Shown here one piece after another: positions 12,615-49,072 of a DNA stretch of 64,000 nucleotides. The notes under the pieces are model-generated. The model did not search any database and had not been told where the DNA came from. It worked only from the letters and a program-made list of their open reading frames with translations. Numbering within the stretch: the stretch's first letter is position 1; each line of letters begins with the position of its first letter. This DNA is from Pseudomonas sp. S35 (GTDB lineage Bacteria; Pseudomonadota; Gammaproteobacteria; Pseudomonadales; Pseudomonadaceae). Position numbers and translations under genes: made by a program. The stretch is taken from contig NZ_CP019431.1 of assembly GCF_009866765.1 (NCBI RefSeq), positions 186,001 to 250,000 on the forward strand, given 5' to 3'.

Positions 12615-12740
12615 GTTTTACACCGTTATTCGTAGTGACCGGGAACGCTGCGGCAGTCGATCATCGCATGCTGTTGCAGGTGCCTCCCCGCCACGTATTC
12701 CTTGAACCACGCCACCCGATGAGTGGCGAATGAGGACTTT

Positions 12741-48170: not shown

Positions 48171-48356
48171 GGGGCTCGGGCCGGGGAGGAGATAAAGGCG
48201 GCTATTTAACGCGGTCTTGCACAATGGTCAGAAGCGAAAGCTCGTCAGTGAAGCCATCAAAAACCGTCATGGTTTGTAAAGGGCCAGCAAGCCACGTCCC
48301 TTTAAATTGCAGGACGTTTCCGAGACAATCCCCGCCGCCTTGTGCCTGTTGGAATC

Positions 48357-48580
48357 GGTGGCTAGTCTGCGATCCGTCACTGCCTTTTCAGTGATCGGGT
48401 TTAGTCGCCCGGACTCTTAATCAGGCGCAAAGTCCTCCATGACGTTTATGGTGGCTGTGCGCAGGGCGCCTTCGGGTGCGCCGGGTTTTCCTGATTAGCC
48501 GGTCGACTAACCTGCGTACAGCCGCCACCCACCGTTTAGTCGCGAATGGGCCGGCTTCTGAATTAATCAGGAGTTACACC
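48357..48580 (+). promoter_or_regulatory. structured mRNA leader, candidate cis-regulatory RNA
   Basis: This 224-bp leader is full of complementary blocks. TCACTG-ccttttc-style hairpin: TCACTG (48377-48382) with CAGTGA (48389-48394). A long stem GGTGGCTGTGCGCAGG (48450-48465) pairs with CCTGCGTACAGCCGCCACC (48511-48529). Block B, CCTGATTA...CCGG.CGACTAA (48490-48510), is complementary both to block A (TTAGTCG...CCGG...TAATCAGG, 48401-48425) and to block C (TTAGTCG...GCCGG...TAATCAGG, 48536-48571). Block C runs into the ribosome site CAGGAG. A/B and B/C pairing exclude each other, as in riboswitches or attenuators. The function is inferred. Confidence 0.6.
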
Positions 48581-48829
48581 ATGACCAAAGCACTTCCCGA
48601 TCCACCCCTCGATTGCCTTGTCGCCAACGAAAACCTCAGTTTCGAAGATGCCCAACTTTATATCGCTCACCTGATCCACAGCGCCTCGGCCACGGTGTGG
48701 GACTGCTGCGAGCACCTGCAACCCCGCGACCGCGCGAAAATTCATGCGGTGTGGCATTTGCTGGAAATGGCTAAGACGGTGGTGGATCGCACCATTGACT
48801 GCATGCAGCAGCCCAATCACACGACCTGA
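48581..48829 (+). CDS. small Pseudomonas protein, DUF3077-like
   Basis: An 82-residue soluble protein. The start is set by 'CAGGAG' 6 bases before ATG. The sequence 'SFEDAQLYIAHLIHSASATVWDCCEHL' followed by 'HAVWHLLEMAKTVVDRTID' resembles the small helical DUF3077-type proteins found in many copies in Pseudomonas genomes; I am not certain of the family number. It stands alone behind an elaborate leader and is followed by a BIME. The function is unknown. Confidence 0.75.
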   Translation: MTKALPDPPLDCLVANENLSFEDAQLYIAHLIHSASATVWDCCEHLQPRDRAKIHAVWHLLEMAKTVVDRTIDCMQQPNHTT

Positions 48830-48862
48830 CAAACGCTGCGATTCCAATGTGAAATCCGATCA

Positions 48863-48953
48863 ATGTGGGAGGGGGCTTGCCCCCGATGGCGGTGGTTCAG
48901 TTATAGATGGGCTGGCTGATACACCGCTATCGGGAGCAAGCCCCCTCCCACAT
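48863..48953. repeat. BIME: two inverted REP units
   Basis: ATGTGGGAGGGGGCTTGCCC faces its complement across about 45 bp containing 'CCGATGGCGG' and 'CCGCTATCGG'. This is the most complete pair in the window after the one at 24220. The remaining bases to 49072 are AT-rich with no gene. Confidence 0.9.
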
Positions 48954-49072
48954 TTTGATCTTCATTGGCTTTGAGTTTTTGGTTATTAATAAATAGCTTC
49001 TTATTCCTTAACGAATATAACCCTCGTCCCTATACTGTTCAGCATCGTTAAAGGTTGCAGGAGGGCACACCC

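Follow-up and report, generated by a model that had tools for sequence, protein, structure and literature searches.

A chromosomal C4-type antisense module is the probable leader of a DUF6124-like gene in Pseudomonas sp. S35

The leader of a small DUF6124-like gene in Pseudomonas sp. S35 is very probably a chromosomal C4-type antisense module, in which an RNase P-processed RNA would repress translation of the gene that follows. Judged by its sequence, the central part of the leader is C4, the antisense RNA of phages P1 and P7. While the C4 RNA class itself is already known, its occurrence as a multi-address chromosomal array tied to DUF6124 appears to be new. The observations behind this reading are the fold of the RNA, the complementarity of its loops to sites on either side, the coordinated change of loops and sites, the linkage of C4 to the gene family and a promoter-like motif ahead of the module. 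C4, mainly known as a phage immunity RNA, looks here as if it controlled a large family of small Pseudomonas genes.

Architecture of the leader and its gene

The leader was read in the window, which is the whole 64,000-nucleotide stretch of DNA that was analysed, and its features are given below in window coordinates.

48340..48368, + strand: sigma-70-like promoter, with -35 TTGTGC at 48340-48345, a 17-base spacer and -10 TAGTCT at 48363-48368
48362..48415, + strand: c4-a1b1 target element (RF03163), sub-threshold at 39.9 bits (cut-off 46.7, E 7.3e-9)
48376..48395, + strand: 5' hairpin of the predicted transcript, the first stem of Rfam c4-a1b1 (RF03163 alignment, fold)
48401-48407, + strand: a1, TTAGTCG, 5' part of segment A, the complement of a' by direct reading
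48418-48425, + strand: b1, TAATCAGG, 3' part of segment A, the complement of b' by direct reading
48444..48532, + strand: C4 antisense RNA (RF01695), 78.1 bits (cut-off 45) over the whole model (positions 1-87)
about 48450-48526, + strand: predicted processed C4 core of 77 bases, beginning GG, with predicted ends
48490-48497, + strand: b', CCTGATTA, in segment B, forming the third-stem loop, with b1 and b2 as its complements
48504-48510, + strand: a', CGACTAA, in segment B, a single-stranded junction of 7 bases, with a1 and a2 as its complements
48536-48542, + strand: a2, TTAGTCG, in segment C, with a'-a2 covariation
48564-48572, + strand: b2, TAATCAGG(A), in segment C, overlapping the Shine-Dalgarno sequence
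48569-48573, + strand: Shine-Dalgarno sequence AGGAG, ahead of the ATG at 48581
48581..48829, + strand: small gene of 82 aa, DUF6124-like (DUF3077-related; PF19619 24.6 bits, cut-off 27)

The initial annotation had picked out three segments, A, B and C, and direct reading of the sequence found each of them where it had been placed. A nearly repeats C, and either one has its complement in B, as can be read from a1/b1, b'/a' and a2/b2; C ends in the ribosome-binding site, as that annotation had stated. Its proposal that A/B and B/C pairing exclude one another, with B-C occluding the ribosome-binding site, was supported from the complementarity, and the long stem and hairpins that it had seen around B are present, the stem measuring 17 bp in the Rfam model of C4 and the leader fold having a z of -3.3 versus dinucleotide shuffles. 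In the fold, the ribosome-binding site was also able to pair in a local hairpin without C4. The annotation erred in holding that no described RNA class has such a layout, which is that of phage P1/P7 C4, namely a1b1 - C4 - a2b2; segment A is the a1b1 target, segment B holds the a' and b' loops of C4, and segment C is the a2b2 target over the ribosome-binding site.

The C4 covariance model was matched above its cut-off and the c4-a1b1 model below its own, and isrK gave a weak match to this leader at a relaxed threshold (25.5 bits, cut-off 50). No Rfam cis-regulatory family and no riboswitch or aptamer family matched the leader in the Rfam scan, the relaxed threshold included. The three-stem C4 fold with a' and b' unpaired was borne out in an alignment of 43 sequences, where its 27 pairs were formed in 95.9% of cells, 126 cells were double-changed and 16 pairs had changes on both sides; the stem covariation lay above that of shuffles in five of five measures. 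In 129 of the 130 modules a GG stands at the predicted 5' end of C4, and the length counted from it has a median of 75 (72-82); the 130-module analyses leave out one partial C4 (E 1.1e-4) of the 36 in genome G010.

The leader is like P1/P7 C4 (RF01695) in its fold, its a' junction and b' loop, an a1b1-like element upstream and an a2b2 over the ribosome-binding site, and also in having a predicted core of about 77 bases that begins with GG. It is unlike P1/P7 C4 in that the module is chromosomal, the target is a stand-alone DUF6124-like ORF rather than icd/ant, and there are many modules per genome, nearly all with an address of their own. The C4 locus of P1/P7 is named immI, and icd/ant is the gene controlled by C4 in P1; instead of a phage antirepressor operon, the target found here is a DUF6124-like gene which, together with its leader, is flanked by genes for an EamA transporter and a serine hydrolase (Pfam).

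A strict sigma-70 consensus scan found no promoter at this leader. A promoter-like TTGnnn-N16-18-TAnnnT ends 29-34 bases 5' of a1 in 42 of 53 modules from two genomes, and the same motif in letter-shuffled DNA was found at a mean of 1.5 and a maximum of 6 per 53 modules.

The initial annotation had called the gene DUF3077-like, which holds in so far as DUF3077 is a related family; no match of the gene product to Pfam DUF3077 (PF11275) was obtained at E 0.001, and its Pfam family is DUF6124 (PF19619), although its score missed the gathering score of the latter (24.6 versus 27). Annotated DUF6124 proteins include relatives about 54% identical to the gene product. The two families are related, the protein of one relative (L050) matching both, and some DUF6124 proteins carry the UniRef name 'DUF3077 domain-containing'. 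A profile search gave 3737 related proteins (clustered at 90% identity), and among the best 120 of these, all those with an organism name were from Pseudomonas. A search of solved structures returned nothing resembling the gene product (best E 0.28). Directly 3' of the gene lies an inverted repeat (48862-48955), which in blastn against orthologs matches in reverse too, and which we take to resemble Pseudomonas REP elements. Elsewhere in the window, a gabT RNA motif (RF01738) was found at 12634-12695 on the + strand (55.8 bits, cut-off 45).

Matched addresses and their coordinated change

The 7-base a' had a perfect complement just downstream (a2) in 58 of 65 modules and upstream (a1) in 59 of 65, as against at most 0.1% of modules with a different code in the same set, and chance repeats were rejected on these counts. 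The 65 modules were drawn from 139 regex matches, which take in both strands of a near-palindrome, and at least four true modules (L057-L060) were lost from them; a second regex set comprised 69 rows, 65 with an ORF; L020 among them is spurious, and one or more true modules, L072 included, escaped it. Of the 130 modules of four genomes, 123 had an a' run of at least 6 at a2 and 127 had one at a1, against non-self values of 2-6% and 5-9% respectively; for b', with runs of at least 7, the counts were 87 at b2 and 55 at b1, against non-self values of 3-4% and 3-5%. No such b' run was found at b2 in 43 modules or at b1 in 75, the signal at b1 being the weakest. Both a' and b' are thus complementary to upstream and downstream targets, b1 least clearly, and the downstream target lies on the ribosome-binding site. 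A called ORF together with a run of at least 6 was available in 101 of the 130 modules, and in these a median of 9 bases separates the 3' end of b2 from the start codon.

Compensatory changes in the pairings, a check that the initial annotation had named, were found in orthologs and in the a'-a2 covariation. In the 43-sequence alignment, a'-a2 pairs were formed in 94.3% of cells, compared with 70.3% when shuffled and 15-47% when slid, 81 cells were changed on both sides versus 20.7 shuffled, and the covariation score was 0.725 versus 0.238. Two further measures did not separate a'-a2 from shuffles, namely the number of pairs with both-side change (6 versus 5.1, reached by 183 of 500 shuffles) and of further pair types (16 versus 14.4, reached by 113 of 500), and in an 11-sequence alignment both-side-change pairs and pair types were at or below their shuffled values. 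For the b helix, 63.9% and 58.0% of cells were paired, values affected by a one-column shift of the b' loop in the alignment; the evidence for b' therefore rests on the self/non-self counts and on the reading of orthologs.

Duplex energies were calculated for the genome with 42 modules, among which 42 different b' occur. The module's own downstream target ranked first for a' in 19 of 42 rows and for b' in 20 of 42, and when a' and b' were taken together the own downstream site was first in 33 of 42 and the own upstream site in 10 of 42. Including the CCGG stem in raw duplex energies gave only a weak distinction between self and non-self at the downstream site, and run lengths on a' and b' alone were used instead.

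A scan of named genomes gave 34 loci, 19 of which (L127-L145) encode relatives of the gene product at 75-96% identity; eight of the 19 (L127-L134) share at least one neighbour within 3 kb, and L135-L145 are at other sites. The C4 arm was read across 35 loci, comprising the locus and its 34 relatives, three of them without a C4 arm (one, L159, a stretch of N), and a1 was perfect in 28 of the 32 loci in which the C4 3' arm was found. A C4 arm was recognisable in the locus and 17 of the 19 relatives, with a1 perfect in 18 of 18 and a2 in 17 of 18, the sole a2 mismatch being in the syntenic ortholog of P. marginalis (L130, the same as L060 and on the same contig). Two a codes and four b codes were present among the locus gene and its close relatives. 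The syntenic site in other genomes has EamA before the module and a serine hydrolase and a sigma-54 activator after it; there, L134 carries the code of the S35 locus, and L127, L129, L130, L132 and L133 carry another, changed together in A, B and C. Three of these loci with the other code, recorded also as L058, L059 and L060, are 88-92% identical in DNA to the S35 locus over 2.1-3.5 kb. In L147, L150, L151 and L152, which have the b' TTCCATGTGA or a near variant, and in L155, the b2 runs are of only 4-5. As a separate observation, about 1.1 kb of other sequence, absent from the S35 locus, stands between EamA and the module in L057, L059 and L060.

Two relatives have no C4 match. Pseudomonas sp. 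MYb60 (L131, syntenic) has kept a1b1 and the first part of C4, and in P. kitaguniensis (L145, at a different site) neither a1b1 nor C4 was matched. The ORF is open in both (82 and 77 codons, respectively) behind a TGGAG, and the two are possible natural derepressed alleles.

Proteins were compared for those modules of the four genomes that have a called ORF, 125 of the 130. Among 84 within-genome pairs whose proteins are at least 75% identical, three share at least 9 contiguous b' bases and six share at least 7; two of those three share only the 5' side of the b' loop, and the third differs in a'. Between species, 67 of 118 pairs of relatives of the locus gene (at least 75% identity) share at least 9 b' bases, although such comparisons of code with protein are not independent and between-species relatives may be younger than paralogs. 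The 29 pairs at 90% or more protein identity have a mean identity of 0.90 in ORF DNA, 0.80 in the promoter region, 0.79 and 0.88 in the C4 arms, 0.71 in a' and 0.60 in b', the short pieces having no random baseline. At G019 1826090/1827201, the proteins are 99% alike and the compared C4 stem is identical, and b', b1 and b2 differ together. A fully identical a' and b' was found in exactly two pairs among the 130 modules, one in G005 (3628832/3629682; L184, L185) and one in G010 (741014/741736; L216, L224). Both are tandem neighbours, and one copy in each is without a start, the ribosome-binding site and start being missing in G005 and the start and N-terminus in G010. Homogenisation of the ORF by gene conversion is suggested in G005. 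On the sequences compared, the a/b stretches appear to form an address nearly always unique to one module, and the within-genome code pattern is what selection for distinct addresses would give.

The module family across genomes

The genome of Pseudomonas sp. S35 contains 11 C4 matches, 11 c4-a1b1 matches (five above the cut-off) and 11 DUF6124 matches; by coordinates, an a1b1 match lies just upstream of 10 of the 11 C4 and DUF6124 lies downstream of 9 of the 11. The 19 ORFs that flank the ten other modules, picked by length, include seven with a Pfam match, of which six are ordinary chromosomal genes (an alpha/beta hydrolase, isochorismatase twice, an aldolase, a copper chaperone and an exonuclease) and the seventh is an IS200-like transposase; the 12 without a Pfam match may be wrong ORF calls.

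C4 was found in 36 of 57 related genomes (32 of 36 congeneric, 4 of 21 from other genera) and reached 42 copies per genome, counts that may be low as at most 62-150 candidates were scored per genome. DUF6124 was found in 28 of the 57, all within the genus, with up to 43 copies, and the copy numbers of the two correlate (Spearman 0.82 over 36 congeneric genomes). In three genomes, DUF6124 lies within 450 bases 3' of C4 on the same strand in 87 of 120 cases and C4 precedes 87 of 104 DUF6124 matches, leaving 33 of 120 C4 with no DUF6124 within that distance. In four further genomes, C4 stands within 700 bases 5' of 29 of 37 DUF3077 matches, DUF3077 being found 3' of C4 in G003, G009, G024 and G025. 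That every Pseudomonas C4 precedes DUF6124 was rejected, as other small genes also stand 3' of C4, among them a 52-57 aa family, an 89-aa family and Bro-N proteins.

The 52-57 aa family was seen 3' of C4 in L022, L023, L024, L027, L029, L032 and L040; no Pfam match was obtained for the three members scanned (L022, L024, L032), and a search with the L024 protein gave one copy in five of six genomes. In L026 and L028, C4 is followed by a gene for a 175-aa Bro-N (phage antirepressor-like) protein, near to the phage arrangement, and the L026 protein matches phage anti-repressor families as well. Clusters of three C4 within 300-500 bases were also observed, in L239 (G025 contig 40, 15367-15852), where two of the three C4 look degenerate, and in G009 contig 21 (16214-16512).

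The leader matched ten phage and plasmid records. Among the four of these that were examined, the C4-DUF6124 pair is present in one phage record (DVM-2008, at the record end) and one plasmid, and the family is therefore not strictly chromosomal. Searches by tblastn, with one relative against phages and with the gene product against plasmids, returned nothing. In two small phage records (L082, phiAH14b; L083, vB_Pae_U10), C4 lies inside annotated ORFs; phiAH14b seems, according to its abstract, to parasitise a helper phage.

Proposed mechanism and alternative readings

Transcription, processing and repression at this locus are what we infer from the above and from known C4 systems. One promoter would give a transcript carrying a1b1, the C4 RNA, a2b2 over the ribosome-binding site and the DUF6124-like gene, within which C4, as covariation shows, folds as its own three-stem domain. 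RNase P would probably cut C4 at the GG at 48450, as phage and Acinetobacter C4 suggest. The freed C4 could then pair a' with a2 and b' with b2, hiding the Shine-Dalgarno sequence and rendering the gene silent. The C4 loops could also bind a1b1, which would act as a decoy and probably titrates C4 or tunes the response. Given distinct addresses, cross-talk need not arise among the dozens of modules of one cell, which might operate independently.

A broader proposal, which we hold as possible though doubtful, is that Pseudomonas chromosomes keep dozens of self-silencing genes whose addresses are held apart by selection as their proteins stay alike; such an address repertoire would be the chromosomal counterpart of phage heteroimmunity. 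In its boldest extension, each module might be a sentinel, an incoming element with the same address soaking up C4 and so releasing the DUF6124 protein. The matched addresses offer a handle on DUF6124-type genes and supply naturally occurring RNA regulators that may be orthogonal; they also raise the question of why tens of similar proteins should each be kept under a different RNA lock in a single cell.

The same RNA might act as in phage P4, C4 pairing with nascent a1b1/a2b2 and causing premature transcription termination, which we consider unlikely. The P4 layout, seqA - CI RNA - seqC, is identical, and P4-like CI RNA and Gifsy-1 IsrK are likewise antisense RNAs between two complementary targets; P4 CI RNA does act by termination, although on replication genes and in a phage context, unlike here (accessible text of PMC4825925). 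A terminator-like hairpin with a T-run was indeed found between a1b1 and C4 in 5 of 53 modules, but 48 of 53 showed no such intrinsic terminator in the same scan and none is listed between a1b1 and C4 at this locus, and an intrinsic terminator was thus rejected as a general part of the module. Moreover, b2 lies on the Shine-Dalgarno sequence, as a translation block would need.

That C4 serves mainly in trans, conferring immunity to phages, satellites or plasmids that share its address, and that the adjacent gene is secondary, seems to us improbable. Its presence in the two small Pseudomonas phage records named above and in one plasmid fits such a role, and targeting of incoming phages is offered as one possibility for Acinetobacter (accessible text of PMC5320573), but the addresses fit the linked gene's own leader, and C4 is strongly linked to DUF6124/DUF3077.

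A type I toxin-antitoxin pair, with a toxic small protein and C4 as antitoxin RNA, is very unlikely. While a small ORF apparently silenced by its own RNA and present in many copies per genome would suit it, the C4-less L131 and L145 keep an open ORF, which argues against a toxin that needs constant silencing and led us to reject the premise that the gene cannot persist without the antisense RNA; by reading of its sequence, the gene product is also unlike a short membrane peptide. Least probable of all is the reading of the initial annotation, in which the leader acts in cis and responds to a small ligand or other signal, since, although A, B and C can pair alternatively within one molecule and could hide or free the ribosome-binding site as in translational riboswitches, C4 folds as a separate domain, no aptamer or other cis-regulatory Rfam family was recognised, and the B loops, hypervariable to the point of 42 different b' in 42 modules, vary most and behave as addresses, not as a conserved pocket.

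The preferred reading, a C4-type module repressing translation, has its nearest chromosomal parallel in the Group 1 sRNAs of A. baumannii, a multi-copy C4 family of 21 members, 15 of full length, whose RNAs are expressed and apparently processed at GGW (accessible text of PMC5320573). That text calls the a' loop the sole variable region and mentions no linked target gene; in Pseudomonas, in contrast, a' and b' both vary and fit the module's own downstream site, and the modules lead into a defined gene family. C4 and c4-a1b1 were known in Proteobacteria and phages from Weinberg et al. 2010 (PMC2864571, accessible part), and a 2025 review treats c4, in its accessible part, as a P1/P7 phage RNA (PMC12197685). 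The accessible open-access literature, which leaves most subscription journals outside its scope, gave no account of a Pseudomonas C4 with matched addresses before DUF6124; it contained no mention of DUF6124, and DUF3077 is mentioned there in work on furfural tolerance.

Finally, isrK (RF01394) was matched above its cut-off just before C4 in L047 (1400-1588), and in L083 (2158-2360), where it overlaps c4-a1b1 before C4. These two matches raise the possibility that Salmonella IsrK corresponds to the a1b1 part in a C4 system.
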